From Anadara kagoshimensis (lineage: Eukaryota > Mollusca > Bivalvia > Arcoida > Arcidae): 64,000 nucleotides of DNA. The DNA lies in the NCBI GenBank assembly GCA_021292105.1, contig CM037872.1, positions 11,372,791-11,436,790 of the forward strand. Direction: 5' to 3'. Below the pieces are notes generated by a model. The model saw only the letters and a list, made by a program, of their open reading frames with translations, did not search any database and had not been told where the DNA came from. Below, one piece after another: positions 12,101 to 64,000 of this stretch. Made by a program: the position numbers and the translations under genes. The stretch's first letter is position 1. The number at the start of each line of letters is the position of its first letter.

Positions 12101-15100
12101 TTATACTCCCTCGTGTCCTTAGTTGAGTAATGGTGTTTAACGTCCCAGTCAAGAATATTTCACTTATATCGTCGCCAGCTATAGGCGAAGGTGCAGAAAT
12201 TTTGCCTGTGCGTTGCGCTGATGGCATTATACAGCAGGGTTCTTTAGCGTGCCAAGCCCACCGTGACACGGGACCTCGTTTATTTTAAGTTCCCATCCGA
12301 AAGAACCGTGACTTTCATTTCGTAATGGCAAGTGCTTGGCGAAAGAACAGTCACTACCCACTTTCAAGTCTTGGGTCAGACCCGGTGGCGGGGATCGAAG
12401 CCACGACCTTCCACTTACGGAGCGAGCACTCTACCAACTGAGCTACCGCAGAGGTTGGAAGTTTACACGTTTATCTGAATTTGTCAGTTTTCTATTAACA
12501 TTAATATACTGTACAGTTCTGTGAAAGTTTTACAATAAGCGCAAAATTAAAAATTCGTCTTTGCCCTTGTTAGCTAAATCTCTTAAAGAGGCATATTTAC
12601 GATACCTGCTATCTCTCTCTATCACACTTTTCGTCAATCTCGGTCACGCGACGCCCTAGCGTTGACCCTTTCCAGTTAGCCAGGGCTGTACTGTACACAC
12701 ACGCAAAGGAATTAACTACAGTCCAACCTATCTTAAATGCCACCTCTATATAAGGATCACTTGCTTATAAAGGCGAGTAAAATTGTATACCAATTGATCT
12801 TTATTCATATTATTTTAAATCTGTATATAAAGGCCGCCTGTTCATAAAGACCAATTTTACTTGTTCCCTTCGGTGGCATTTATAGACAGGTTTGACTGTA
12901 TATTATTGGCTGTTATACCATTGTATTACCTTTTGACTGTAGAAGGAAGCTACTGGAGTATAATACCAAACCTATTTAAAGCATTCGGGTGGAATCCGGG
13001 AAACAAAATATTTGATTGGATGGGAGAAATAATTTCAGTCAAAACAGGAAACCCGGATATTACATTTTTAGAGGTAACACTGATACTGAAAACGTGTTTA
13101 AGTTCGCGTGTACTGAATAACGAGAAATATTCGCGATGTATTAATATTTGCGCTTTTCACGGTCAAGTCTCAACTGCGAATATAAGTACACCGCTAAGTT
13201 TTCCACATGTGAAACAATAAAAATGGGCCCCACAAACACCGATAATGTCAATCGGCGGTAATTTTACACCCCCCCCCCCCCCGGGCCGGTATCCTCTTTT
13301 ATTGCATTAAACTCACTGTTTAATTTGTATTTATTTTCGTTGTAAAGAAAATTTAAACATATTCGCGAAGTTAAATTTTAGTTTTTTTACATATGCACTA
13401 TATAACACAAAATGCATAATTTTATTTTCGCTTGGTATTAATTTTCGCGCAAGACAAACGAACGCAAAATAATCGAAAATTAGTACACCGCGAAAATTAT
13501 ACGTTTAAATAGAAACGCTTTTTAACATTATATTTGATAAATTTTTAAGCGAGCACTGTCTTATACGTTTAGTCTTGGGTTTGAAAAAATAAACGAATAT
13601 AAGAACGAAGCCATCCATATTTGTTGCATTATTTTCAACTTTGGAAATTACCTATGCGGCTAATATGTTAACACAATAGGCTCACGACTTGTCAATAAAT
13701 GGATAAAAACTCCAAGCTATCTAAACGGTTGCAAAACTTTCATTGGACAATGTAAGTAAAAGAAAATCTGGCTGAAGTTTAACAATAATTCTACATAATT
13801 ACATTTCAGATATATAAAAAGTTTGGAAGAGAGTTATGCATTGTTGTTACCAATTTGAACCAAATGAAAGAGGTTTATTGCCACCCGAAAACAACACCAC
13901 ATATGCCTGTTAGGTCCGCAGTGCGCATGTCAATGTCTATACCAGGTAATACAGCATTACAAAATAAATACACATGGTATTTTCTATCCAATGTTATGCT
14001 GATTTTTATGGTGAAGGTGAATTTCATGGAAACCAAACACGTACTCGTCCCTTCCCCTGTTAGCTAAACCTATTGTCATGTTTTCGGTAGATGCTTTATT
14101 TCTACCAACACCTTTTTTGGTTTTTGACTGTCCATGTATTGGCCTCTCGACAACAGCGATTCGACTCTTTTCCGTTAGCCTGGACAGTACTGTACATATA
14201 TACAAAGGAAATGACAATATTATCTTTTACTCCCGTCATCTAAAATACCATTTCGTCGTACAAAACATAAATATTACGCTAGTTTGTAAATGGATATAAG
14301 AACGAGTGCAATATGACAACAACACAGCGATGACGTGGACAGCAATCATAGGACGTCATAAACGACAGCGTCATGCAACAAAGCGTGCAGTATGAAAAAA
14401 AATGATTCGGGAACGCTCGGACTGGAACAAAGTTAGCGTGCAAATATCGATATTTATTGCACGCTAACACCTCGGGATTTACCGTTTAATTTCTATGCGA
14501 AACATATATTGCTATATAATAATACCTTTTATATCATTCTATTACATATTGACATTGCAGAAGAAAGTAACTTGAGTTTATCAAATTACTTATTCAGACA
14601 CACGTTCTTCTTATGACATCTCAATTAGGATTAACCACTGCGGTAGCTCAGTTGGTAGAGTGCTCGCTCCGTAAGTGGGAGGTCGTGGGTTCAAACCCCG
14701 GCCGGGTCTGACCCAAGACTTAAAAGTGGGTAGTGACTGTTTCTTTGCCAAGCACTCGGTATTACAAAATGATAGTCACGGTTCTTTCGGATGGGAACTC
14801 AAAATAAACGAGGTCTCGTCTCTTGGTAGGCTTGGCACGATAAAGAACCCTGCTGTATAATGCCATCAGCGCAACGCATAGGCAAAATTTCTGCACCTTC
14901 GGCTATAGCTGGCGACGTCTCTATATAAGTGAAATATTCTTGACTGGGACGTGAAACACCATTACTCAACTCAATTGGGATTAATAGTAATTGTTATATA
15001 AGTTTTGGGAAATATTTGATGGACCAAAATCGAAGCAGCCCGAGTGTGTTGTGGCCGTCATCACAAAAAACACAATGGCTTTGTATCCCAAAGTTATCCT

Positions 15101-41800: not shown

Positions 41801-44800
41801 TTTATTGTTGTTTATCGTCACATCATCGATTTTTCAGTTATTTGCAAAAAAGTCATATGCAGACTTATTTTGAAATATCCCGCGGATCAATACAATGAAG
41901 CTGCACAGCTATTTGTTATAATTTAGTCGCCATTTTGTTTGCCATATTGGATTTGACGGCCATTTTGAATTGCGAACAATTTTGAAATATATCTATGAGT
42001 AATCACAGACCATAAACAAAATGTTTTCATGCAATACTGAATTAAAAATCGGTACAAAAATGCTTAAATCTACGTTTTTCATTATTTGAGCCACCATTTT
42101 GTCCACCATATTGGAAATGGCAGCCATTTTGAAATCTAAATCATCAGCAGATATATGTAAAACTATTACGCAGTTCAAAAACAAAAACAATTCCTGCATA
42201 TTTGTGAACAAAATGGGTGATAATAAACTTTAAATACAGTTTATGTGATTTTGTCGGCCATTTTGTCCGCCATATTGAAATGGCGGCCATATTGGATTTT
42301 TTGGTTGGTCCCATATCTGAAAATAATCTCCAGGTCATAAACTATAATCATGCCAAATTTCATGCTTTTAACAAAAAAAACCACAATATTTTTACGATTC
42401 TGCTGGACTTTTAGAGGAGCATGTTTAGTTTACTCTTAAGAATAATGCAAAAAAAAAAATGCTCATGCATGCATGAAATGTGCGAATTTACGGTCATCAT
42501 AGTATTGTTGATTGATGTCTCTGTGTCCAGGATGCAAAAAAAAAAAAAGAAAAACGTTCATGTAAACATGAGATGTGCCTATGAGCCGTCATCACAGTGT
42601 TGTTGATAAGTTTGATGTCTCTGTGTCCAGGATGCAAAAATACGTTAATGTATGCAAGAGATGTGCGTATGAGCCGTCATCACAGTATTGTTGATAAGTT
42701 TGATGTCTCTGTGTCTAGGATCCAACAATACGTTAATGTATGCAAGAGATGTGCGTATGAGCCGTCATCACAGTATTGTTGATAAGTTTGATGTCTCTGT
42801 GTCCAGGATGTAAAAACACGTTAATGTATGCAAGAGATGTGCGTATGAGCCGTCATCACAGTATTGTTGATAAGTTTGATGTCTCTGTGTCCAAGATGCA
42901 AAAACACGTTAATGTATGCATGAGATTGCGTATGAGCCGTCATCACAGTATCGTTGATAAGTTTGATGTCTCTGTGTCTAAGATACAAAAACACGTTCAT
43001 GTATACATGTGGTGTGCGTATGAGCCGTCATCACAGTATTGTTGATAAGTTTGATGTCTCTGTGTCTAAGATGCAAAAAACACGTTCATGTATACATGAG
43101 ATGTGCGTATGAGCCGTCATCACAGCATTGTTGATAAGTTTGATGTCTCTGTGTCTAAGATGCAAAAACACGTTCATGTATACATGAGATGTGCGTATGA
43201 GCCGTCATCACAGTATTGTTGATAAGTTTGATGTCTCTGTGTCCAGGATGCAAAAAAACATTCATGTATGCAAGAGATGTGCGTATGAGCCGTCATCACA
43301 GTATTGTTGATAAGTTTGATGTGTCTGTGTCTAAGATGCAAAACACGTTCATGTATACATGAGATGTGCGTATGAGCCTTCATAACAGTATTGTTGATAA
43401 GTTTGATGTCTCTGTGTCTAAGATGCAAAAACACGTTCATGTATACATGAGATGTGCGTATGAGCCGTCATCACAGTACTGTTGATAAGTTTGATGTCTC
43501 TGTGTTCAGGATGCAAAAAACATTCATGTATGCAAGAGATGTGCGTATGAGCCGTCATCACAGTATTGTTGATAAGTTTGATGTCTCTGTGTCCAGGATC
43601 CAAAAATACGTTAATGTATGCAAGAGATGTGCGTATGAGCCGTCATCACAGTATTGTTGATAAGTTTGATGTCTCTGTGTCCAGGATGTAAAAACACGTT
43701 AATGTATGCAAGAGATGTGCGTATGAGCCGTCATCACAGTATTGTTGATAAGTTTGATGTCTCTGTGTCCAAGATGCAAAAACACGTTAATGTATGCATG
43801 AGATTGCGTATGAGCCGTCATCACAGTATCGTTGATAAGTTTGATGTCTCTGTGTCTAAGATACAAAAACACGTTCATGTATACATGTGGTGTGCGTATG
43901 AGCCGTCATCACAGTATTGTTGATAAGTTTGATGTCTCTGTGTCCAGGATGCAAAAACACGTTTATGTATGCTAGAGATGTGCGTATGAGCCGTCATCAC
44001 AGTATTGTTAAGTTTGATGTCTCTGTGTCTAAGATGCAAAAACACGTTCATGTATACATGAGATGTGCGTATGAGCCGTCATCACAGTATTGTTGATAAG
44101 TTTGATGTCTCTGTGTCTAAGATGCAAAAACACGTTCATGTATACATGAGATGTGCGTATGAGCCGTCATCACAGTACTGTTGATAAGTTTGATGTCTCT
44201 GTGTTCAGGATGCAAAAAAACATGCATGTATGCAAGAGATGTGCGTATGAGCCGTCATCACAGTATTGTTGATAAGTTTGATGTCTCTGTGTTCAGGATG
44301 CAAAAAAAATTCATGTATGCAAGAGATGTGCGTATGAGCCGTCATTACAGTATTGTTGATAAGTTTGATGTCTCTGTGTCCAGGATGTAAAAACACGTTA
44401 ATGTATGCATGAGATGTGCGTATGAGCCGTCATCACAGTATTGTTGATAAGTTTGATGTCTCTGTGTCCAAGATGCAAAAACACGTTAATGTATGCATGA
44501 GATTGCGTATGAGCCGTCATCACAGTATCGTTGATAAGTTTGATGTCTCTGTGTCTAAGATACAAAAACACGTTCATGTATACATGTGGTGTGCGTATGA
44601 GCCGTCATCACAGTATCGTTGATAAGTTTGATGTCTCTGTGTCTAGGATGCAAAAACACGTTTATGTATGCAAGAGATGTGCGTATGAGCCGTCATCACA
44701 GTATTGTTGATAAGTTTGATGTATCTGTGTCTAAGATGCAAAAACACGTTTATGTATGCTAAGATGTGCGTATGAGCCGTCATCACAGTATTGTTGATAA

Positions 44801-47563
44801 GTTTGATGTCTCTGTGTCCAAGATGCAAAAACACGTTAGTTTATGCATGTGATGTGAGTATGAGCCGTCATCACAGTATTGTTGATAAGTTTGATGTCTC
44901 TCTGTCCAGGATGCAAAAACACGTTAATGTATGCAAGAGATGTGCGTATGAGCCGTTATCACATTATCGTTGATAAGTTTGTTGTCTCTGTGTCCAGGAC
45001 GCAAAAACACGTTCATGTATACATGAGGTGTGCGTATGAGCCGTCATCACAGTATTGTTGATAAGTTTGATGTCTCTGTGTCCAAGATGCAAAAACACGT
45101 TAAAGTATGCATAAGATGTGCGTTTGAGACGTCATTACAGTATTGTTGATAAGTTTGATGTCTCTGTGTCCAGGATGCAAAAACACGTTAATGTATGCAT
45201 GAGGTGTGCGTATGAGCCGTCATCACAGTATTGTTGATAAGTTTAATGTCTCTGTGTCCAAGATGCAAAACACGTTCATGTATGCATGAGATGTGCGTAT
45301 GAGCCGTCATTACAGTATTGTTGATAAGTTTGATGTCTCTGTGTCCAGGATGTAAAAACACGTTAATGTATGCATAAGGTGTGCGTGTGACCCTCATCAC
45401 AGTACTGTTGATAAGTTTGATGTCTCTGTGTCCAGGATGCAAAAACACGTTAATGTATGCATGAGATGTGCGTATGAATCGTCATTACAGTATTGTTGAT
45501 AAGTTTAATGTCTGTGTGTCCAGGATGCAAAAACACGTTCATGTATACATGAGGTGTGCGTATGAGCCGTCATCACAGTATTGTTGATAAGTTTGATGTC
45601 TCTATGTCCAGGATGCAAAAACACGTTCATGTATGCAAGAGATTGCGTATGAGCCGTCATCACAGTATTGTTTATAAGTTTGATGTCTCTGTGTCCAAGA
45701 TGCAAAAAACACGTTCATGTATACATGAGATGTGCGTATGAGCCGTCATCACAGTATTGTTGATAAGTTTGATGTCTCTGTGTTCAGGATGCAAAAACAC
45801 GTTCATGTATACAAGAGATGTGCGTATGAGCCGTCTTTACAGTTTTGGTAATAAGTTTGATTCCATAGTTCCGTGTTCCATCCACTCAAGTTTGATTTTG
45901 CGCGGGTGCAGTAGCAGTAAGCTAAACAGGAGGTGCTTACTCTTCCGGAGCACCCGGCCTCACTTCCCATTTGAAAATTCACATTTACTTAGCTTCTGGA
46001 TTATAATTCGGACTTTATTAAGTATGTTTGTTTTTGATTTGAACTAGCGCGCAGCAAGGATTGGTCTAAGGTGCTAGTGAGCAATACACGGACCAGCATA
46101 CTATTCCCCAGTCACATTATCCTGGCACTGGGTCGCCAGTCGAGGGAACAGTATTGCATTTTTTAAGGTCTTTTGTATGACCCTGACGAAGTTCGAACCC
46201 AAGACTTCGAGCTCACATCCTCGAGGCGGACAATTTATCACTGATTATTGAGGCGGTTTTGAGTACCAGAGGTTTGTGGGTATGACAATTCTAATAAATT
46301 TTAATGGCATACGGTAAAGACCTGTCAAAAATATAACACTGAGCTAACGAGGAATCGACATTTCGGTCACATAGTGACTGAGATATGAAAAGCTGGTAAT
46401 CGAAAATTTGTCGAGTGATAGCTACTGTGCATAAAGGCTATTTTGAACATGGAATATTGTAAATTACGTTTTAATAAAGAAGTGCTTGCAAAAATTAACA
46501 GCGCATATATATTCATTATTCAGAGACTTAACTAAAAAGTATATTTTTGTCAATGCTGCATGTTTTGGTTAACGTCTGTATATAGACAAAATCACATTTT
46601 TGACAGAAAATATGTATTCCAGCTAACCATTTGTGCCTCAAATTACATATGAATGTTGGGTAAAAATTAACCTTTCACCTGCGTGATTGAGTAAAACAAA
46701 TTTACACCCGGTCGACCTACATATAACCAAAAGATAATGAGGCATCTAATGGGAGTATTTATACTTAACCATTTTGATATTCTTGAAAAAATGGCAAAAT
46801 TGATGGTATGTACACACTCACATAGACCGATTTAAAACAAAACATTTTTTCCACTTAGGTCTCTCTTTTCTGTGCTGAAATATAATTAAAATTTTAACAA
46901 AAATTAATATTAGAATTAAATATTTAATCGCAATATATCCATGTTCAAAATAGTCTTTATGTACAGTAGCAGCTGTTGAAAATCAACATTAATAGGCGAT
47001 GCGCATATATCATTAACGCGAGTTGATTTGCTAATTTTCCTTGGAGTATTGCCCTTTTAGCATAATTGTTAATCACAAAAAGATCATAATATACTGAATT
47101 TACTTGTCATTTGTGCGATTGATGACATCTCTTTTTTTTTTACATTTTTTTATTATCTCGATGACTGCGATTGATTTGGGGCACATTAATATGAAACTTA
47201 TCTGAATTTCTGAAAGAAAACAGTCCCAAGTCCCATGAAAAATGTATCACAATCTACTTTGTATGTCAAACGGCCATGGTGATTATAAAACATCCGACCA
47301 TTTCATATCCTGATTGACATAGAAATTGTAAAACACGCCCACTTTATATCCTGGCAATTGAAACACGCGTAGAATTTTATTCTATAATTCGAAAAATGGT
47401 GTTGTGGCATGTTTCCTGATACCTACCTGCACTTTCCTAAAATTCCTGGGATCGCCACTGCATCCTGCCAAGGAAATTTTAAAGGAATGTTCAAGCTATA
47501 TGCCTAAATACTCCTTTACAAATTAAGAAACTAATATATTTTCTTTAATTGCAGACTCAATGA
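35761..47563 (+). CDS. Gene 2: small secreted six-cysteine protein, 4 coding exons
   Basis: Exons 35761-35806, 37339-37347 (9-nt microexon), 40947-41143 and 47555-47563 join to 261 nt, 86 codons plus TGA. MKFYFALLLVIYICYCSA is a clear signal peptide; cleavage is expected before ESCTTSDDC. The mature part (about 68 residues) has six Cys with spacing C-x5-C-x7-C-x16-C-x25-C-x-C and ends CDFAQTQ. AATAAA at 47601-47606 supports the terminal exon. Without the microexon the junction of exons 1 and 3 creates TAA. I do not recognise the family; the pattern suits an extracellular disulfide-stabilised peptide. A 261-nt coding sequence spread over 11.8 kb is unusual, and an alternative end by read-through after exon 3 (VCIGK, stop) is possible. 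Confidence 0.62.
35920..36420 (-). repeat. About 41-bp tandem array derived from the R3E terminus
   Basis: Units of caaccacaaacataccagtc plus cgaattaaaaatcccaaaat or catgtccaaatcataat; in reverse complement this is the R3E end with its final bases changed. About 11 units. Confidence 0.75.
36421..37338. other. Intron 1 of gene 2, little seen
   Basis: A poly(A) run at about 36652-36669. The 36700-36800 stretch shares tgtgggcgtggccagcgatc with a diverged version near 26440. No coding evidence. Confidence 0.35.
37339..37347 (+). CDS. Gene 2 microexon (9 nt)
   Basis: tctttttcag precedes gttcggcag, which is followed by gtgggt. It codes the rest of Cys16, then Ser, Ala and the first base of Glu. 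A better donor (gtgagt) lies 4 nt downstream but would shift exon 3 into a frame with an early TGA. Confidence 0.5.
37820..38135 (-). mobile_element. R3E, well preserved inverted copy
   Basis: aaaaacaaacatactgatcc at the left, agaccgagttttctggaagg, gctagctacacc, then caatattggacacagagaca and gataagcctaagcttgcaat. Confidence 0.8.
38341..38680 (+). mobile_element. tRNA-headed SINE-like element
   Basis: Head gaccgccttggttgctcaat with B-box-like ggttccaacc, related to the 20095-20368 element. Right boundary uncertain. Confidence 0.5.
38681..40240. other. Intron 2 of gene 2, no feature seen
   Basis: No repeat family or exon I can support. A frame at 39881-40144 lacks domain features and splice logic. 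Confidence 0.3.
40243..40283. other. Strong G+C-rich hairpin
   Basis: acgggaaattcccggcg, loop cttcg, cgccgggacatttcccgt: 17-bp stem with one extra base, in otherwise AT-rich intron. Confidence 0.6.
40426..40716 (-). mobile_element. SINE-B tail fragment followed by a MITE-2 end
   Basis: 40426-40616 matches the SINE-B 3' half; 40617-40716 ends acctcgacaggtctgtattg, a MITE-2 terminus. Confidence 0.6.
40947..41143 (+). CDS. Gene 2 exon 3: cysteine-rich mature domain
   Basis: Acceptor atttttcag, donor cag|gtatgc. Codes ESCTTSDDCIQKLGNGC through GLCYCDFAQ with all six mature cysteines. A MITE-3 copy starts within 10 nt of the donor. Confidence 0.7.
41150..41790. mobile_element. MITE-3 interrupted by SINE-A
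   Basis: Left end ataacattgacctgtccact and right end ggacaggtcaatgttgtttg bracket a 390-bp SINE-A at 41235-41624. Confidence 0.8.
41235..41624 (-). mobile_element. SINE-A nested in MITE-3, 10-bp duplication
   Basis: Exact ggatagtgtt at 41225-41234 and 41625-41634 flanks the element. Confidence 0.88.
41925..42320. repeat. Repeated gccattttgtccgccatatt block
   Basis: About three units spaced about 150 bp apart, each with gccattttg, gccatattgga and ggcggccatttt-like motifs. Confidence 0.6.
42445..45865 (+). repeat. 88-bp satellite, about 39 units, in gene 2 intron 3
   Basis: Unit start gagccgtcatcacag recurs every 88 bp (42671, 42759, 42847). About 48 bp of each unit is the RT-coding part of R3E (RHHSIVDKFDVSVS); the other 40 bp is new and often holds the palindrome catgtatacatg. 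Blocks repeat at offsets of about 878 and 700 bp. Open frames here are not genes. Confidence 0.97.
45858..46040 (+). mobile_element. R3E 3' UTR joined to the satellite
   Basis: ccatagttccgtgttccatc, ggaggtgcttactcttccgg and aagtatgtttgtttttgatt directly follow the last satellite unit. Confidence 0.8.
46050..46262 (-). mobile_element. tRNA-headed SINE-like fragment
   Basis: Reverse-strand head with B-box-like gggttcgaactt and tgataaattgtccgcctcga. Confidence 0.4.
46315..46427. mobile_element. MITE-2 left part
   Basis: agacctgtcaaaaatataac and gctaacgaggaatcgaca; interrupted by MITE-6. Confidence 0.6.
46425..46967 (-). mobile_element. MITE-6, second copy, inverted relative to the first
   Basis: Termini actgtgcataaaggctattt and tagtctttatgtacagt; the inner sequence is the reverse complement of 34561-35102. 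Confidence 0.8.
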
Positions 47564-53004: not shown

Positions 53005-53059
53005 ATGGGATTAATGATAACATTCTTTATATTTGGCATGATTTGGCAGTCTTTTCAAG
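53005..53059 (+). CDS. Gene 3 exon 1: signal peptide
   Basis: ATG, 18 codons, hydrophobic core, donor caag|gtacgt, phase 1. A MITE-2 copy ends 79 bp upstream of the ATG. Confidence 0.78.
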
Positions 53060-56000
53060 GTACGTTATTTATAATAATTAATTTTTTTTACAATTTTGAT
53101 GTCTCTGTGTCCAGGATTGCCCTGGATATATTTGACGTCTCATAGTTCCATGTTACTTTCACACAATTTTGATTACACGCGTGTCGGTGTAGCTAGCTAA
53201 ACAGGAGGTGCTTACCCTCCCGGAGCACTTGGCCTCACTTCCCTGGTGGAAGTTCACGTGTATAACCTAACTTGTCAGTTCCAAAGTTTTTACTTTGCTT
53301 CTGGATTGTGATTCGGATATGGATTGGTATGTTTGTTTTTTGATTACAACTTACTCTTTATTATAATAATAAACAAATTTAATTAAAAAATAATTCAAAG
53401 TATAGTTTTATGTTCCTTTCATTCTCAATTTTGATTACATACGTGACGGGTATAGCTACCTTAAAAAAAGAGGGGGGTATCATTTCCTAGTGGGAGTTCA
53501 CGTGTTTAACTGAATTAGTCAGTATCAAATATTTTATGATTGGAATTGTGATTTCAACATGAATTGGTATGTTTTTTATTTATAAATTCGAATTCTGTGT
53601 ATAATATTGTCATATTACAATTAGCTGTAGACTAAAACAATAATTCTAATAATAATAATAGTAATAAAAATAATAACAAAATTTTTTTTTAAAAAATAAA
53701 GAAAATAAGAAAAGTGAAACTGAGTTTTCAGGATGGCATATCACGCAGAAAATAAATCAAAATTTATTAAAAACAAATATACTGATCCATGTCCAAATTA
53801 AAATTCCAAAGGAAAGTTCGACACATTAAGTTAAACCAGAGAAGTAAGGTCATGTGGTCCGGAAGAAAAAACATGCTAAATGAATAGAAATTAACATGAG
53901 AACTTGTAAACAATCTACCATGGGAAATTAATTTTAAATACATTCAAAATATTTAAATTCATATACATGTTGCGAGAGCTATCGTGACGCACAACAACAC
54001 ACAACACAATATAATTAATTATAGACACAACTCAAAAGACAAGAGCAAATACTGGATAAGACCACTGATTATAAACAATCCTAACTGGCATTGGACTTAT
54101 AATCGCCATAACTATTTTTAATTAAAGAAAATGCAAACCACAAGTATTGTGGTGTCATAAATGTTCGTGGTATGTCCTTTTTAGTTGTTTCGGGAACACA
54201 TGTGTCTACGAATTTACACGTCAACAAAATAATTTATATTACAAACTCACTTGAAATGGTAACTTAAAACCACGAATTTACTTACCAGCGAAATGGCATA
54301 TTTTTTTCTTCAATAACCCCTTCCCCCCTCACACACAAAATAAAATTACACCGCAAAAATACTAGTAAATGATTTTTAAGTATTTTACTTACAAACGTAT
54401 CAGCGTATGTATCTTTGAAAGACGGTCAACATGAAGAGCTGTTATTCAGGATATTTTTTTCTTTTCAGTTAAGGGAAATGTGTCCAGAAACTCAAGTTCA
54501 GAACTGCTGGGTAAGTGTGTTATTCTTTGGCTGATTGTAGTAAGGACTTCACTGATGATCGATAGATATAGCTTTTATCCGCTTAAAAACTGCTTCTTAT
54601 AATTTTACTATGAAAACAGGTAGATATATTAATGTACAAAATCATTTAAAAATTTGCTAAATGTGTAACAAAAAACACAAACACACTAATCCATGTCCAT
54701 GTCATAATCCCAAATTTTAAAATTGAAAACCTAAAAGAGGAACAAAAAATTTAACACGTGAATCTCGATTTAAGATAGATTGCAATCGAAAACGCCAATA
54801 GTGTTTTAAAAGTTAATTAATTTTTGTATCAAACACGTTGATCTATATTCAAATCAATTTTAAAACTACAGAACCGAAAGGATATTTGTAGAACGAAGTA
54901 GGCTGCTTGCAAATAAATTGTTGACTCAGGGATATTGCAAGCCTAGGCTTATCAAGGCCCTCAAAAAGTTTTGGCCGTCATCACAGTAAGTTCAATGCCT
55001 CTGTGTCCAGGATTGCCCTAAATATATTTAACGTCCCATAGCCCCATGTTCCTTTCACACAATTTTGATTACACACGTGGCGGGTGTAGCTAGCTAAACA
55101 GGAGGTGCTTAACCTTCCGGAGCACCTGGCCTCCCTCACTTCCCTGGTGGAACTTCACGTGTCTTACCTAACTTGCCAGTTCCAAAGTTTTTACTTTGCT
55201 TCTGGATTGTGATTCGGACATGGATTAGTATGTTTGTTTTTGATCATGTTAAAGAAGAACTATTTGTGAGCAGTGTAATTGTGAAATATGAGGGCAGGTC
55301 TAGCGACAAAATATCCAGAGTTCATGGATACAAGATGTAACATGGTAGTAACCTCGGCACTTGCTTGGTACTTTTTCAATTTCATGTAAGAGATGATCGT
55401 GGGACCAGTGAGTGCCGAGAATTAGCATCTTTGTGATATGTACGTCCTTAATATTCTACATTGGATATATAGAGCAAAAATTCCTTAATTATAGTAGAAA
55501 ACAAAAACGTAAGCGAGTATTAAGCGGTGCGTTTTCTCGTAAAAACATATATTGAATTTTGTTTAATTAATGCAACAATTTATTTTAAAATGTAATTTAA
55601 GTCTTAAAATTATTCCCATGCTATTTTTTCTACATTTGATTTTTTTAATACATCAATTCAGAATAGATTTTTGATTCACGTGTAATTAGGTATGTGTGAT
55701 GTGACATACTGGCAACAGTTGTTAATGAATTTACACCTTTGAGTATCGGATAGGAAGATGACATTTTAAAAAGTGAACAACTGAAAAAACAAACAAAAAA
55801 ATCCAGTTCTTATCCTTACCAAAGTCCAAAAAGCAAAGTTAGAACTTGGAAAGCTGAAAACTGACACATGCGATCTTCCATGATACTGGGTGCTCCGATA
55901 GGGTAACTACTTCTTGTCTAGCTACCTGCTATGCTAGTCACATGTAAAATCGAAAGAAATGGTGAAAACAACATGGAACTATGTGGCATTAATTATGTCC

Positions 56001-59000
56001 AGGACACATTTGAAAACAGAGGCATGTTGCGTATCAAAAATATTGTGAGGACTGCCATTTAACGTTTTCAGGATCTTAATTAACTAAGATTTACCATATC
56101 CTTGTGTCAACAATTTATGTGTGAGCAGTTCGTTGCGTATAAAATTCCCATAGTTGAAAATAATTCAATTTTCCTTTGTTTCAATGATTTTAATTGGTCA
56201 TATTTTTCTGTAAAGTTTGCATGAATGGATTTGCTCTTAATGGCGTCATCTTATTTTGGATTATCATAGCGATGCTATTTTTTACTTGCTATGGCAATAC
56301 TGTTATTCAAATTATTGATCTGTTGTTGAAAAGTGCTACGCGAATTATTTAGTGTGCAAAATGTCCAATTCTTTGTTACTTTCATAACAAAAAAACCCCC
56401 AACAAATTACTTAATTCCTATAATGAAAACAATTTATATTGTCTATAGTTCCATGTTCCTTTCACACAATTTTGATTACACACGTGGCGGATGTAGCTAG
56501 CTAAACAGGAGGTGCTTACCCTTCCGGAGCATCCGGCCTCACTTTCCTGGTGAAATTTCACGTGTCTCACCTAACTTGTCAGTTTCGAAGTGTTTACTTT
56601 GCTTCTGGATTGTGATTGGGACATGTATGTATGTAGTATGTTTTTGATTTTTGACTAATTGTTCCTACAGATACAACAGATGAAGATAATACTTGTAACT
56701 TGTACATTGCTTCCAAGGAAGACAACTCTATTCTCAAAACTAATGATGATATACAAACATCACCGGTAAGCCTTCAACAACTGCCATTTACAACGTCAGG
56801 ATCCGTTAATTACATCACTGTTGAACCTGTTGAAGGGCGGATCCTGTGGGGTGAAAAAGATGATTTGTGGACTTGGAAGCTTGATGGATCAGGTATGAAA
56901 TATTAAAAAATACATAACAAGACAACCGTTAGTGATAAAAAATAAAATGACAACGGTTATTGATAAAAAAAAACTTGTGTGAGGGAGAAACATGTATTCA
57001 GATTATTATTTGAAACACTATTGTTACTGGCTGTTAATGATATTTAAGTTTTAATGAGTTGAGAAAATTTCTATGGTTCCATATTTATTTAATAATTGCA
57101 AATTGCAACCACTTAGCTGGTATTCCTGCTGGTGGACTAACTAAACATATCCTTGAAAATCTTTAACCCAGAATGCAATATATAGTATTGTCAGAAAAAG
57201 ATTTTTTTATCAAAATAATTTGCTTCTTATATTTTAAAATTCCTATCATGTTGATTGACATAACATCCCCTTGGAAATCGTTAACCCAGAATGCAATATA
57301 TAGTATTGTCACAAAAAGATTTTTTTATCAAAATAATCTGCTTCTTACATTTTAAAATTAGTACCCTGCATGTGGACATAACATCCTCTTGGAAATCGTT
57401 AACCCGGGATGCAATATATAGTATTATTATATAGCAATATATGCTTCGTGTAGAAATTAAACGATAAATCCCGATGTGTTAGCGTGCAATAAATATCGAT
57501 ATTTGCACGATAATTTTGATCAAGTCCGAGGTTTCCCGAATCATGTTTTCATATTGCACGCTTTGTCACATGACCCTGACATTTATGACGTCAAACGATT
57601 GTTGTCGACGTCATGAATGTGTTGTTGTCATATTACACTAGTTCTAATATCGATTTACAAGAACTAATGTAATAATTATGTATTGTACGAAAATAATGGA
57701 ATTTCAGATAAAATACGGAAATAAATTGAAGTTAACGAAATTTATTTTGCTATATAATAAAAGGGTTATTGAACTGATATTGTGAAATATTGTCCCGAGT
57801 TGACTAGCATTTGCACGAGCTTGCGTTTCATATATTGTTAAATAAGCAATGTTAATCAAAATTATATGCTTCGTATATTTTAAGATTCCTAAAAAGCTAA
57901 GCTATGCTTTCATGCTTTATCGTTCAAAGTATTGCCTTAGTCGGATTTGATAAAATACATTTTACCGTCTATGTTTTTTCATTTTAACATAAATATCCTT
58001 TGATAGCTGCAACCTTTGAGTTGAGTTGAGAAATGGTGTTTAACGTCCCAGTCAAAAATATTTCACTTATATCGAGACGTCGCCAGCTTTTAGCGCAGGT
58101 GCAGAAAGTTTGCCTGTGTATTGCGCTGATGGCATTAAACAGCAGGGACTTTTGTCGTGCCAAGCCTACCGTAACACTGGACCTCCTTTGTTTTAAGTTC
58201 CCATCCGAAAGAACCGTGGCTTTCAATTCGTAATGCTGAGTGTTTGGCGGAAGAACAGTCACTACCCACTTTCAAGCCTTGGGTTTGAACCAATGACCTC
58301 CCACTTACACAGCGAGCACTCTACCAATGCTACAGCCTTTGAGTCAATAAGATATATTTTACATGTCGCTTTGGTAAATAACATATATGATACGTTTCTG
58401 GCATTTCCAATATTACAGAGAAATCCAGCAGAAGAATATGGAATTACGGTATTACGTTAAATAACAAATCAATCTTGTTTTTCTATAACTTTAATTGCTA
58501 TACATCGATTTTAATAAATTATATACATATATAATTTAATTCTCCTTTTGTCAAGCATTTTTAGGGTCATATTTTTCTGTTAGCTTTGCATGAATGGATT
58601 GGCTCTCGGTGACGTTATCTGATTATGGATGAAGCGCAGAGGCAATTAAATTCCTTCGCCATAGCGATGCTATTTTTGGTTTGCTACGCCAATATCGTTA
58701 TTTAAATTGTTGATTTGTTGTTGACAAAATTCTATAAATTGAATTATGGTAAATGAATTATTCAGTGTGCCAAATGTCTAGTTCTTTTATACTTCCATAG
58801 CAAAAAGAAACTATAATATTTCAGTTTACATCGCTTTTTTAAAATATATATTATCTACTTAATTATATATTTAAACATGTCTATAAAGGCATCTAAAAAC
58901 CTGTAAAGGTGACCGCAATGGGCTGTTGACATTTTTTACAATATTCAAATAACACAAACAAAAGCATTTGCGATAAAAATATACTGTCCTGTAAAAGCAG

Positions 59001-62000
59001 ATGTCTCTTAAATAGAGGTGACCTTTAAAGCAAGTTTGGCTGTATATCGTAATGTTTTGTAACCTCTTTTTATCCAAGTCTGTAATTTTATAAGTTTTCC
59101 TTGTAAATATTATTTTGAATCAATACAACATGTAAATACAAATATAACTAACAGTTGTCTAAAACTCTATCCTCTTCATGTAAGTCTTTATTCAAAATTT
59201 AATATTCTATGAAGTTCTGTTTGGTCAAATTTTCATTATCGCAACATTGTTACTTCGCCATCGTATCTTCGCTTCGTCGCGTGATAGCATCTTTCTTCCT
59301 TGGCAATATCGCACCATCGTAACTTTGTTCCTTCGCCATGGTTTCTTTGCTTCTTTGCGTTATCGCAAACGTGCTACTTCATCCCTTCGTCATCGTAACT
59401 TCTTCACATTATGGTAACATCGTGCCTCCACCAACGTATGTTTGCTATTTGGCGTTATATCAAAATCGTGACTTCGTTCCTCCGCCATCGTATCATCGCT
59501 CTTTTGCACAATCACAACATCGTATTTTCGCTACTTCGTCGTCGTATCTTCGTTTCACTACTCCTTCGTATCTTGCTCCTTCGCCATTGTGTTTTTCTCC
59601 TTCTCTTCTTCACGGAAGAGCAATTATGCAAATTTGTTCCCAATAGAATACCATAATATTCTTTTCTTGTTGTCTGTGAAAATATATGAATAGAAATTAT
59701 CATATTGAATATGACTCCATGTAACTGTTTTCAAACATTACGTCCGAGTTTACACCCTGTTTCACTTCCCTTGTGGAATTTCACGTGTTTAACCTGACTG
59801 GTCAGTTTCAAAGTTTTTACTTTGCTTCTGAAATGTAATTCAAACATGGATTGGCATGTTTGTTTCTTATTTTCATTTACTTAACGTCTATATGTAGGTT
59901 TATATAGAATGTATATGTCAGTTGAATGTTTATAGCTTTTTTCTTATTTTGTAACTTGTGTGTATGAAAATTGTTTGTAACATCTTTATATATCCAAGTT
60001 GTTTTTTTAATGTTGTAACTTTTCTCCATGTAAAATATTTCTAGGGTTATATAACCATAATTATTACATAATCTCCTGTATGAATTATGGATATTATGGA
60101 TACAGTTCACAAAGGTCAAATCATGTATTGATTATGATTCGGATATGGATTGATATTTTTTTTTTTATATGGATATGAAAGTATGTGGCATTAAGATAAC
60201 ATCCTCGTTCTACAAATGACATTGGGTCACATAAGATACATACATTTTAAACGAACATCTGAGAAATCTGATTGTTCATTATCTCAATACAGTCCAACCT
60301 GCCTTAAAGATCACATTTATGTAAAGGCCACCTGCTTATAAAGGCCAGTAAATTTGTATCCCAAGCGTCCTTTATTCATATTATTTAAACATGTATATAG
60401 AGGCCACTTGCCCATAAAGGCCACTTTTACTGGTTCCCTTGGGTGACCTTTATAGACAAGTTTGACTACACATGTATACCTTTTTCAGTTTTTGAAACTT
60501 CTATGTTTTAAATATTTTTTTTTTAATTCACCAGGATGCGGACTTGGAAAAATTGACCTTGTGTTTATTGTGGATGTTTCAGAAAGCATAGGTACAACAG
60601 AAAATTTCAATAGACTGTTAGAATTCTTAAAAGCAATGTTGAAAAATGCCGACATTGATTCGGGTAGTGTCCGTGTTGGCATTGTGTCATTCAGTACAAC
60701 AGTTTCTGTGGAATTTAAGATGAACGAATACACTACACACGAAGACGTATTTCGGGCCATTTCTAAGATTCCTTGGAAAGGACACAGCACTAATACTCAT
60801 GAGGCATTGCGCATAACTCGTGAACAAATGTTTACAACTGCTGGTGGCGACCGGGATGATGCACCTAATGTTGTTATATTAATAACGGATGGCATGTCTT
60901 CATTTCCTGGAAAGACACTTTCAGAATCTGTTAAAGTAAAACATGAAGGCATCCACATTTACGTCGTCGGGATCGGTGAAATTCAACCCGAATTGTTCAA
61001 CATTGCTTCATCTCCTGCATCAGAAACCTTATTTTTCGTGGCTGACTTTGGTGAACTGAAAAAATTGGATTTACAAAGATTCAGATCTATTTGTTTAGGT
61101 ATAATTCATATCTTTATTACTTACTATAAAGCACAGTTTTTCGCAAAATATTTCATGATATCCCATACTATATGCTATATATGCTATATACTATATGCCT
61201 ACTAATATCTCTTATTTGTAAAAGTACAAGCTTTAATAGCTCTTTGTTTCAATTTCCTATTCATAGCATTAAATATCCTCTGCTTACAAGCAAACGCAAA
61301 AAATATTGCGCAAGTCTAGGACTATCCTTCAAAACATTTTTGCCGTCAAACCAATATTATTGATTGTAAATTGTCAATTATCAAAGTTTCTGCTGTTCTT
61401 TTGGATTGTGATTTATTTTAATATGGATTGAAATGTGTGTGTGTGCGTGTGTGTGTGTGTGTGTGTTATAATAAAATACTTTATTATCAGTTAATCTACT
61501 CTATTTAATAGTTTAATATCAGTTTCACAATTTAGTTAGTCCATTTATGTTTTTTATTTGTGGAGGCCAAGGTGGCATAATGGATAGACATCAGTCTAAA
61601 AATCCAGAGTCTCTCATCGCTGTGAGTTCCAGCCCCCTCAGGCCACATGTGGGAAAGTGAACTTTCCTTCTTGCCGTATGTCTTTACTGGTTCACCTGGT
61701 ATCAGTATACTGTGACTGGGGGTGTGGTACGCTTGTCTGATCATACTGTCTCTGTGAGCTAGCACGTTAAAGTCACCCCGAGAGCGCGCTAGTACATGAC
61801 AGACCATAAAACACACTCGCACTTCACATGCATTCACGACCTTGTTCATAGATTAATCCATAGAGAACAATAAAATAGTTCTCGCCGCGAATAACTAAAA
61901 AATTGCTGATGCGACGTTAAGCAACTTCCAACCAAAACAAACGTTTATGTTATTTGGTATCACCGTTGTTTGTAAAACAGAAGGTAAAACTAAAGGTCGT

Positions 62001-64000
62001 TTGTAAAACAGAAGGTAAAACTAAAGGTCGTTTGTAAAACAGAAGGTAAAACTAAAGACATGTGCTTCAAACTCTTACGTTATTTGCATAGGAGCGTGTC
62101 ATGGTTTCCCTTTTACTAATATATACAATTATTTATGATATTCTCTGTTTTCTTAGCTAATACACTGACAGGAGCTGCTTTAGACTGGACACATGGGATA
62201 CTTTATATTGGTTTAAACCGCATGCGCAGCGTAATAACTCTAAAGCTTCTTAGTAATGGCGACGCTAGACTTCATGAAACTCAAATCGACGTTCAACCAA
62301 ACATCAAAGCAATTGATTCTTTTCATAGGTAGGTGAAAATTCTAAAATACAAATTATCAGCATATGAAAAAGGTACAAAAAACAGTTTATGGAAACAATG
62401 ACTTGTAGGGCTTAAGTTTTGCTTATCTTCTAAGATTTATAATTTTTATTTACATGTACTAAAAGTATTTTTATAGTACGATAAAATAGAAAAAGAACCA
62501 CTCGTTCAAAATCCAAGAAACCAGATACTTCTCATAGTTAAATTATCGATCCATATCTATCGTAATTCGTACTCTCGATGAAAAGTTTTTGATTCGGAGC
62601 CATATTATTTTTTTAATCTATTACTAATACTACGAATAACTATAGATCTTTAAATTAATGTTCTCTTGATTTAGTAAGGTAATTTTGTAAGTTACATATT
62701 TTTGTAACCGTAATTTTCTATATTTTGTTATACCAGGGATTTTGCATGTCTAGGCTAATCAGAGCGCTCAAAACGGTTTATGGCCTTCATCACAGTATTG
62801 TTGATAAGTTTTATGTCTCTGTTTCCAGGATTGTCATGACGTCCCATAGTTCCATGTTTCTTTCACTCAATTTTAATTACACACGTGATGGGTGTAGTTA
62901 GCTAAAAAAGGGAGTGCTTACCTTTCTGGAGCACCCAGCCCCACTTCGCTAGTGGAAGTTCACATGTTTCACCTAATTTGTCAATCCTTTTCTTGCTTCT
63001 GGATTGTGATTTGGACATGGAATAATATGTTTGTTTTTGATATAATCATTCTGTGAACATTTTTTATCAAATGTCTTCTGGTTGTAGAAAGTTATATCAG
63101 GTTCCGGTAATTGCATCCGATATCATAAATGAAATAACATTGGATAAAGATGGTAGAGTGTACGACCGGAGGTTAATCATAGATTTGAATGGAACGCCCA
63201 TATCGTATATAGAAGTTGATTCAAAAGATGGTCGTCTGTATTACGTAACAGCTGTGTCACAACCTATTATATATACATTTAACATCGACGAGGGAAAACC
63301 AAAAAAAATAATTGAAGCAAAAGGACTTGGATTCACCAGCTATGGTAAGAATTTATATAATACATATATCCGATAAAATCAAACCAAATAAATCCAATTA
63401 AAAATGGAGGTCAGAAATACTAGTATTTTATAATACAGTTCCAAGATGGAAAATTAAATATAGCTGTTTTTGAAGAATTCACATTCTTTTTGGGATTCTG
63501 GACAGCACAATAACTGGTAAATGTATGTTTGTTTTAGCAATTAGCATTTTAACAACAGGATAACTGCTGTAATCAAATATGAAAAAGCGTCAGCATATAA
63601 ACGGCACTTGTGTAATATTTTTCTCATGTACACAAAATGAAATAACAAAATTGCAAAACCTGTACGATGGATCGTGTTTAATAGACTCTTTCGCAGTATT
63701 TTTGCAGATTGACAAAATTCGTAATTTTTGTAAAATTGTCTGGAACATAGATATATAAGTTCTTTATTCCATTCATCTAAAATTATATTTCCGGAGCACC
63801 CGGCCTCATTTCCCTGGTGGAAGTTCACGTGTCTAACCTAACTAGTCAGTTCCAAAGTTTTTACCTTGCTTCTGGATTATGATTCGGACATGGATTAGTA
63901 CGTTTTTTTATTATTATATTGATAGGATATGATTTGTATAATCTTATTATTTGTCAGGACATTATTTATATTGGATCGAAAACTCCTTCAATTCGTCTTA
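53005..64000 (+). CDS. Gene 3: secreted YWTD-propeller protein with inserted vWA domain (partial, runs off right edge)
   Basis: Exons 53005-53059, 54469-54510, 56671-56892, 60535-61098, 62157-62328, 63088-63344 and 63958 onward join in one frame. Exon 1 is a signal peptide (MGLMITFFIFGMIWQSFQ). Exons 3, 5, 6 and 7 carry LDL-receptor-type beta-propeller repeats: ITVEPVEGRILWGEKDDLW with KLDGSG, AALDWTHGILYIGL, YIEVDSKDGRLYYV and GHYLYWIENS. Exon 4 is a whole vWA domain (about residues 107-294) with MIDAS motif DVSES (120-124), a Thr in GHSTNTHEAL, LITDGMSS, and flanking Cys108 and a Cys in SICLG. Secreted or membrane ectodomain is likely; the C-terminal part lies beyond the window. Ligand unknown. 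Confidence 0.85.
53095..53344 (+). mobile_element. R3E, well preserved, in gene 3 intron 1
   Basis: gatgtctctgtgtccaggat, stop tag region, ggaggtgcttaccctcccgg and ttggtatgtttgttttttga. Confidence 0.85.
53405..53585 (+). mobile_element. R3E 3' UTR, diverged
   Basis: tatgttcctttcattctcaa, gacgggtatagctacc, gggagttcacgtgtttaact. Confidence 0.6.
53765..53865 (-). mobile_element. R3E terminal fragment, inverted
   Basis: aaaaacaaatatactgatcc followed by atgtccaaattaaaattcca. Confidence 0.6.
54469..54510 (+). CDS. Gene 3 exon 2: short Ser-rich linker
   Basis: Acceptor ttttcag, donor ctgg|gtaagt, 42 nt, phase 1 at both ends. Codes VKGNVSRNSSSELLG, with possible N-glycosylation sites NVS and NSS. 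Confidence 0.7.
54892..55244 (+). mobile_element. R3E, long copy
   Basis: gaacgaagtaggctgcttgc, gcaagcctaggcttatcaag, a 10-nt deletion around the VDK codons, stop region, full 3' UTR ending ttagtatgtttgtttttgat. Confidence 0.85.
55245..55790. other. Gene 3 intron 2 segment, no feature seen
   Basis: AT-rich; no repeat or exon supported. Confidence 0.3.
55795..56090 (-). mobile_element. R3E, inverted, diverged
   Basis: ccaaagtccaaaaagcaaag, actgggtgctccgatagggt and tgtgaggactgccatttaac keep the order of an inverted R3E. Confidence 0.55.
56448..56652 (+). mobile_element. R3E 3' UTR next to gene 3 exon 3
   Basis: agttccatgttcctttcaca, ggaggtgcttacccttccgg, and an end near tgtagtatgtttttgatttt. 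Confidence 0.85.
56671..56892 (+). CDS. Gene 3 exon 3: first beta-propeller blade(s)
   Basis: Acceptor ttcctacag, donor tcag|gtatga, phase 1 both ends. Codes DTTDEDNTCNLYIASKED and an LY repeat ending WTWKLDGSG. An R3E copy ends about 18 nt before the acceptor. Confidence 0.85.
57150..57432 (+). repeat. Three tandem units of about 118 bp
   Basis: cagaatgcaatatatagtat followed by tgtcagaaaaagattttttt; units start near 57168, 57286 and 57405. Confidence 0.8.
57433..57840. repeat. Dispersed repeat paired with 14225-14530
   Basis: gttagcgtgcaataaatatc, gacgtcatgaatgtgttgtt and gaacgataaat-like flank in inverted order relative to the first copy. Confidence 0.55.
58019..58333 (-). mobile_element. 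SINE-B with target-site duplication
   Basis: Tail at the left; head truncated near accaatgctac. Flanks caacctttgagt and cagcctttgagt. Confidence 0.78.
58873..59046 (+). mobile_element. MITE-1, diverged
   Basis: acatgtctataaaggcatct at the left and aagcaagtttggctgtata at the right. Confidence 0.6.
59255..59610. repeat. Degenerate short tandem of cttcgccatcgtaact type
   Basis: About 12-24 bp degenerate units built from ttcgcc, atcgta, acttcg and caacatcg. Frames through it are low complexity. Confidence 0.65.
59745..59870 (+). mobile_element. R3E terminal part
   Basis: cccttgtggaatttcacgtg, caaagtttttactttgcttc, ttggcatgtttgtttcttat. Confidence 0.7.
60289..60475 (-). mobile_element. MITE-1, full length, just upstream of the vWA exon
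   Basis: acagtccaacctgccttaaa at the left and gacaagtttgacta at the right; ends about 60 nt before exon 4. Confidence 0.78.
60535..61098 (+). CDS. Gene 3 exon 4: complete von Willebrand A domain
   Basis: Acceptor ttcaccag, donor ttag|gtataa, 564 nt, phase 1-1. Starts GCGLGKIDLVFIVDVSES and ends LQRFRSICLG. All MIDAS elements are present (DxSxS, Thr loop, TDG). The open frame continues upstream and downstream into intron, so the exon edges rest on splice consensus and homology. Confidence 0.92.
61376..61466 (+). repeat. R3E end fragment and (GT)n
   Basis: ttttggattgtgatttattt and atatggattgaaatg lead into a gtgtgt tract at 61434-61466. Confidence 0.6.
61563..61935 (+). mobile_element. SINE-A
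   Basis: Head ggaggccaaggtggcataat, centre ggtatcagtatactgtgact, tail gcgacgttaagcaacttcca. Confidence 0.82.
61968..62057 (+). repeat. 31-bp tandem, 3 units
   Basis: gtttgtaaaacagaaggtaa followed by aactaaaggtc, three near-perfect copies. Confidence 0.9.
62157..62328 (+). CDS. Gene 3 exon 5: propeller LY repeat
   Basis: Acceptor ttttcttag, donor catag|gtaggt, phase 1 to phase 2. Codes NTLTGAALDWTHGILYIGL, matching the usual segment after LDGS in YWTD propellers. Confidence 0.85.
62740..63042 (+). mobile_element. R3E, upstream of gene 3 exon 6
   Basis: gcatgtctaggctaatcaga, cttcatcacagtattgttga, 3' UTR and ttgtttttgatataatcatt. Confidence 0.8.
63088..63344 (+). CDS. Gene 3 exon 6: propeller LY repeat
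   Basis: Acceptor ctggttgtag, donor tatg|gtaaga. Codes RKLYQVPVIASDIINEI onward with YIEVDSKDGRLYYV. An R3E copy ends about 46 nt upstream. Confidence 0.85.
63788..63912 (+). mobile_element. R3E 3' UTR end, upstream of gene 3 exon 7
   Basis: atttccggagcacccggcct through ggacatggattagtacgttt. Confidence 0.8.
63958..64000 (+). CDS. Gene 3 exon 7, truncated by window end
   Basis: Acceptor atttgtcag; codes GHYLYWIENSFNSS, a YWTD-type strand. An R3E copy ends about 47 nt upstream. Confidence 0.75.

Follow-up and report, generated by a model that had tools for sequence, protein, structure and literature searches.

The 64 kb of the Anadara kagoshimensis genome analysed here (G000:C16:11372791-11436790, in a genome of 1.115 Gb and 36 contigs; hereafter, the window) raise the question of whether an exon encoding a von Willebrand A (vWA) domain lies inside a YWTD-type propeller, as a preliminary description proposed, and to what kind of protein such an arrangement would belong. 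A chain of nine plus-strand exons was modelled. It opens with a probable signal peptide, MGLMITFFIFGMIWQSFQ (exon 1, 53005..53059), which has an ATG, a hydrophobic run and a GT donor and ends in phase 1, followed by a short phase 1-1 linker, KGNVSRNSSSELL (exon 2, 54469..54510), with AG/GT borders and an in-frame join; both were placed from splice signals alone, in the window copy. YWTD-like repeats 1 and 2 are encoded by exon 3 (56671..56892, 222 nt, phase 1-1), the vWA domain by exon 4 (60535..61098), repeat 3 by exon 5 (62157..62328, phase 1 to 2) and repeats 4 and 5 by exon 6 (63088..63344, phase 2 to 1). All four have AG/GT borders, and exons 3, 5 and 6 have counterparts in paralogs. The positions of exons 3 to 5 were as originally claimed, and the length of the vWA exon (564 nt) and its phase 1 on both sides were borne out by exon borders and frames. 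From 58.8 kb of sequence read downstream of the window we obtained exon 7 (63958-64113), which carries repeat 6, runs past the window end at 64000 and ends in phase 1, and, beyond the window but in its numbering, exon 8 (65106-66699), with an LDLa-like module, leucine-rich repeats (LRRs) and transmembrane helices TM1-6, and exon 9 (68170-68320), with TM7 and NPxxY; the placement of the exon 8 donor, the exon 9 acceptor and the C-terminal tail is unsure. The reading frame was open across 9/9 modelled exons, and CWLP and NPxxY were both found in the translated gene.

Several repeats were also recorded in the window. A tandem array at 42550-45861 comprises about 38 copies of an 88-bp unit (92% matches) containing TTTGATGTCTCTGTGTCCAGGAT, which recurs in intron 1 of the window gene, near 53097, and a minisatellite at 5757-7639 is built of about 83 copies of a 23-bp unit and also has units of a higher order, 68 and 91 bp long. 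The dispersed repeat GCTTCTGGATTGTGATTCGGACATGGATTAGTATG was found at 10 places (≤ 3 mismatches; e.g. 55198-55232 and 63868-63902; 0 in 100 shuffles), nine of them on the plus strand and four inside modelled introns of the window gene. Two weak tRNA-like matches, at 4147-4219 (tRNA-Tyr, anticodon ata, according to ARAGORN) and 14641-14704, are perhaps tRNA-derived repeats.

Exon 4 matched PF00092 with 142.7 bits (cut-off 23.8, E = 1.7e-41). Its 187 codons contain no stop, and its frame is the sole stop-to-stop frame of at least 130 aa in the window, among frames closed inside it. The MIDAS motif, which we take to be the set DxSxS, T and D, is intact as had been proposed (DVSES, T and ITD), and these residues are what suggests metal-dependent ligand binding by the domain. 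A vWA profile found its best matches among collagen VI domains, Proximal Thread Matrix Protein 1 and integrin I domains. One cysteine sits close to each end of the domain, likewise in the single member read from a vWA array on contig C14, and the pair could possibly clamp the two ends together. At least 150 vWA matches were present in the genome (150 of 504 candidates scored).

Pfam called no LY repeat (PF00058), nor any other family above cut-off, in the exons flanking the vWA, so the LY reading of these exons rests on other than Pfam. A profile of the joined flanking exons, aligned across four paralogous loci (A1), was compared with PDB at E up to 10; 14 sequences were matched, and 14/14 were of the LDLR family (LRP2, LRP6, LDLR and LRP4). 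The best whole-chain E value, 2.9e-6, belonged to LRP2, a chain with many propellers, and the best single-stretch E value was 0.011, among three PDB matches listed. Alignment of A1 to a propeller piece of LRP6 by hhalign gave a probability of 90%, E = 1.5e-6 and 28% identity over 162 columns, and a control with the vWA profile gave E = 0.48. Six YWTD-like strands were counted by eye (LYIAS, ILWGE, ILYIG, KLYQV, LYYVT and LYWIE), the sixth in exon 7, with the vWA following the second. An LDLR-type propeller of six YWTD/LY repeats is therefore indicated by the profile, its number of repeats by eye. Unlike LDLR-family proteins, the window gene has a propeller that the Pfam LY model does not match, followed by an LDLa-like module, with no EGF in the modelled exons and with a vWA in addition. 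A propeller complete before or after the vWA, which the preliminary description had named as the contrary case, was not found: two repeats precede the domain and four follow it (by eye, from DNA only). Nesting of the vWA inside a YWTD propeller by way of a symmetrical exon was thus confirmed in the predicted gene.

The part downstream of the propeller was called by Pfam as 7tm_1 (E = 1.4e-26) and LRR_8 (E = 3.9e-22), with PF00057 (LDLa) absent among the families called there, and PDB matches of the GPCR part included relaxin receptor 1 (RXFP1, E = 1.6e-60), the thyrotropin receptor (TSHR, 8e-35) and LGR4 (3e-32). An LRR ectodomain joined to a rhodopsin-type 7TM near the relaxin receptors is what characterises a type-C LGR. 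Because the gene continues into an LDLa-like module, LRRs and a rhodopsin-type 7TM, its propeller and vWA would belong to the ectodomain of a GPCR of the type-C LGR class. LDLa modules have a six-cysteine pattern, with cysteine 1 paired to cysteine 3. At 4/4 loci with a nested vWA, cysteines 2, 4, 5 and 6 were present, and 1 and 3 were missing together; all six positions were found in 9/9 group-II genes, and the remaining 7/20 loci vary. With the type-C LGRs RXFP1/2 and GRL101 the window gene shares the LRRs, a rhodopsin-type 7TM closest to RXFP1 and, putatively, the LDLa-like module ahead of the LRRs; it differs in keeping four of six LDLa cysteines and in its head, neither propeller nor vWA being mentioned for theirs in the available portions of the sources. 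Judged by its predicted domains, the window gene is a type-C LGR with a new head, and neither an integrin nor a plain LDLR-family protein.

When the joined propeller exons were compared with their own genome, 19 matches were obtained, 15 of them in four loci of equal exon order, the remainder comprising two on C1 and one each on C10 and C11. Paralogs of exon 3 lie at C16:3836130 (locus C16b), C5:53459581 and C17:222875, with a relative on C10; exon 5 of C17, missing from the genome-wide matches, was recovered by a local look. Since the order exon 3, vWA, exon 5, exon 6, exon 7, GPCR recurs in four loci, the arrangement is more than chance. Between exons 3 and 5 the window gene and C17 have a single vWA exon each (that of C17 being 535 nt long and frame-broken), and C16b and C5 have three each (561, 561 and 558 nt in C16b, 558 nt for every copy in C5); the tripled exons including introns span C16:3837497-3841144 and C5:53461305-53466593. 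MIDAS residues are complete in seven of these eight vWAs, with two changed in C16b copy 2. Values of dS between copies inside a locus were 0.11-0.19 in C5 and 0.11-0.16 in C16b, and 0.36-0.40 between facing copies of the two loci; as copies are closer within than between loci, they were either tripled separately or homogenised. The exon chain, its phases, the domain identities and the equal layout in three paralogous loci can all be read directly from the DNA.

Estimates of dN/dS (Nei-Gojobori, no significance test) for the window gene against C16b, C5 and C17 were 0.48, 0.35 and 0.30 in the propeller and 0.44, 0.37 and 0.30 in the vWA (first copy of each locus), and in the GPCR exon 0.33 and 0.21 against C16b and C17; among the vWA copies inside C16b they reached 0.79-1.07. 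Each of the three paralogs carries a lesion (a TGA in C16b exon 6, and a frame change both in the vWA exon of C17 and in exon 8 of C5), which may mean that some family members are dead or that the assembly is in error. The C10 relative has exon 3 and exon 6, between which neither a vWA nor exon 5 was located; it is probably decayed, because its exon 8 frame is broken. As an empty, pre-insertion site C10 was ruled out by the missing exon 5 and the broken exon 8.

The proposal that exons 3 and 5 read as consecutive parts of one LY series held only in part. They belong to one YWTD-type propeller by A1 and hhalign, but joined without the vWA (LDGS|ANTLTG) they have nine residues fewer than LRP6, the gap being placed by hhalign two residues off the junction, so that the two halves are not seamlessly consecutive. 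Removal of the vWA likewise keeps the frame, as had been stated, but leaves repeat 2 short by these nine residues, and the vWA seems to replace a strand of that repeat rather than being dispensable. A related GPCR gene on C14 (70791869, minus strand; stretch C14:70799000-70808999) has a longer, LRP-like head in the order vWA, two YWTD-like exons, two EGF-like exons, exon-3-like exon, micro-exon, exon-5-like exon and LDLa-LRR-7TM, with the vWA N-terminal and not nested in the second propeller. This gene was read in part (70794752-70798999 left out), and its YWTD-like exons, assigned by eye, had no Pfam LY call and no phmmer match to the exons of the window gene; its EGF-like exons matched FXa_inhibition (1.5e-4 and 8e-6) below the cut-off of that family. 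The candidate micro-exon, SIDSVQLQDK (33 nt, phase 1-1), was placed by splice signals only, between the exon-3-like and exon-5-like exons. Because it stands at the same point, and the window gene is short by about that much, the vWA may have taken the place of a strand, a reading that draws, as regards the micro-exon, on the one gene from C14. In the introns beside the vWA at the four loci there was no convincing micro-exon counterpart or candidate pair, and blastn returned short weak matches only.

The GPCR exon had at least 99 matches at no fewer than 82 places in the genome. A scan of 20 loci, chosen for the best GPCR exons and covering about 1.5 kb upstream, so that misses are not absences, found an exon-7-like YWTD exon in nine, some without an adjacent vWA, which indicates a propeller that predates insertion of the vWA. 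Pairing of vWA with GPCR places used 69 hand-chosen vWA places plus C31:257904; array vWAs, all more than 1.3 Mb from a GPCR match or on a contig without one, were left out. Within 150 kb upstream of the GPCR place, a vWA was present on the same strand in 13/82 cases and on the opposite strand in 0/82, the 13 pairs not being independent (several are near-identical copies, some on short contigs); within 150 kb downstream there were two on the same strand and three on the opposite one, the third being C31:257904. In the 9/13 pairs outside the four loci the vWA lies 17-121 kb from the GPCR exon, a spacing at which, for eight of the nine, membership of a single gene cannot be claimed.

Outside the four loci, the closest vWAs came from the C14 array, whose best members have 53-55% identity to the window vWA over the whole exon. 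Two large vWA clusters, at C14:23.63-23.83 Mb and 24.94-25.16 Mb, hold these nearest kin, and possibly represent the donor family of the nested vWA. In a vWA tree, the seven group-I vWAs other than that of C17 formed a supported clade (99/97), with the C17 vWA outside, beside the C14 array; a single origin of the group-I vWAs appeared in 29% of bootstrap trees, leaving the branching order open. A move of a group-II vWA into group I was considered and is disfavoured by the lower identity of the window vWA to group II (35-40%, versus its best values to the C14 array), with the same openness of the tree as to order.

On this evidence we consider it reasonably probable that the window gene encodes a type-C LGR of the relaxin-receptor/GRL101-like kind, in which a vWA between propeller repeats 2 and 3 provides a metal-dependent recognition head on a constant signalling base. 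From N to C terminus the receptor would consist of a signal peptide, a six-repeat YWTD propeller that the vWA interrupts after its second repeat, then a reduced LDLa, LRRs and seven TM helices. The vWA would have come as a symmetrical 1-1 exon out of a matrix-type vWA gene family and would have replaced the outer strand of propeller repeat 2. Situated at the distal end of the receptor, it would bind a large matrix-like or microbial ligand through a metal ion; the propeller would anchor both vWA ends and carry movement or tension via LDLa and LRRs to the 7TM and a G protein, the whole amounting to an exchanged recognition head placed on an unchanging signalling base. A comparable case is offered by Biomphalaria, where GRL101-like receptors with a C-type lectin head occur in the schistosome-resistance region SudRes2 of the snail, as given in the available text of PMC12297450: they share with the window gene an added recognition domain on an LDLa-LRR-7TM base and clustered paralogs, and differ in having a lectin where the window gene has a propeller and vWA. 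By analogy with these lectin-headed kin, and given the matrix-type kin of the vWA, a role in microbe or matrix recognition is tentatively suggested.

The vWA exon could instead be part of another gene lying within an intron, or a captured exon that has died and is usually skipped, with a receptor working without it. Its symmetry, by which the frame survives skipping, and the C10 relative, with exons 3 and 6 and no vWA or exon 5 found between them, are consistent with this; the decay of C10 weakens the second point, and a dispensable exon sits poorly with 187 stop-free codons, dN/dS of 0.30-0.44 when compared with a single vWA from each of the three paralogs, recurrence at one place and in one phase at four loci, two of which hold three in-phase copies, and the loss of nine residues from repeat 2 on skipping. 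We regard this account as very unlikely. The earlier idea of two isoforms is without support for related reasons, as repeat 2 is short when the exon is skipped and none of the four loci lacks a vWA exon, with three present in two of them; a working isoform with the vWA exon skipped is doubtful. A family that is decaying or damaged in assembly, without present function and with the nested layout as an inherited relic, would account for the lesions in 3/3 paralogs and for the dN/dS of about 1 that C16b shows between its vWA copies. It would not readily account for a window copy open in 9/9 modelled exons or for dN/dS well below 1 on the longer branches, and appears improbable.

The ligand itself could also be of another kind, the gene being a receptor for an insulin/relaxin-like peptide hormone in which vWA and propeller merely stabilise or position the molecule and bind no ligand. 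The GPCR and LRR part is similar to RXFP1, relaxin-type peptides activate starfish RXFP/LGR3-type receptors (available part of PMC11863921) and an insulin-like ligand has been proposed for GRL101 (available part of PMC8286064); GRL101-like receptors have more widely been tied, in the accessible portions of the reports, to chemosensation, pigmentation or insulin-like peptides (PMC4079206, PMC6267866, PMC11863921, PMC8018223, PMC8286064). What makes us hold this hormone-receptor account to be somewhat unlikely is that the base is kept and the heads vary, from the nested vWA of four loci to the N-terminal vWA of C14 (read in part) and the lectin of the snail (PMC12297450, in its available text), and that MIDAS residues are retained in 7/8 vWAs. 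A type-C LGR with a metal-dependent vWA head remains our preferred reading.

Such a receptor invites comparison with integrin alpha chains that carry an I domain. The window gene is not one of these, as its propeller profile matches the LDLR family only and the gene runs into a 7TM. Integrin alpha has a seven-bladed propeller, of the type named FG-GAP, together with a beta chain, whereas the window gene has a six-repeat YWTD propeller on a 7TM. In both, a propeller carries a MIDAS vWA after its second repeat and ahead of its third. The closest working model for the window gene is the integrin alpha I domain, which is located between blades 2 and 3, its relay to the beta chain running through an internal ligand (PMC12422189 and PMC4237329, in the portions available). 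According to the available part of PMC4237329, no integrin I domains have been observed in lineages older than urochordates, so the layout of the window gene would not descend from integrins. The same insertion place in an unrelated propeller makes the likeness to integrin alpha I look convergent. We put forward, as a tentative possibility, that protostomes independently invented the layout of integrin alpha I anew, in a form in which GPCR signalling would replace the beta chain by way of a ligand- or force-driven pull on the propeller, and the three serial vWAs of some paralogs would tune avidity or specificity. No description of a vWA-propeller-GPCR layout was found in a search of titles and abstract starts in a limited literature collection, and among the best literature matches listed for GRL101 in bivalves none contained GRL101.

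If this reading is true, the gene would be a second, independent capture of a vWA at an integrin-like propeller position, so that the same receptor trick may have been made twice, here in a GPCR carrying an adhesion-type, metal-dependent head. It would provide a naturally occurring case to set beside integrins in asking how ligand binding can be passed on by a nested I-like domain. It would also fit a picture in which mollusc LGRs combine an unchanging signalling base with recognition heads that can be exchanged, one such version lying, according to the available text of PMC12297450, in a parasite-resistance region of a snail.
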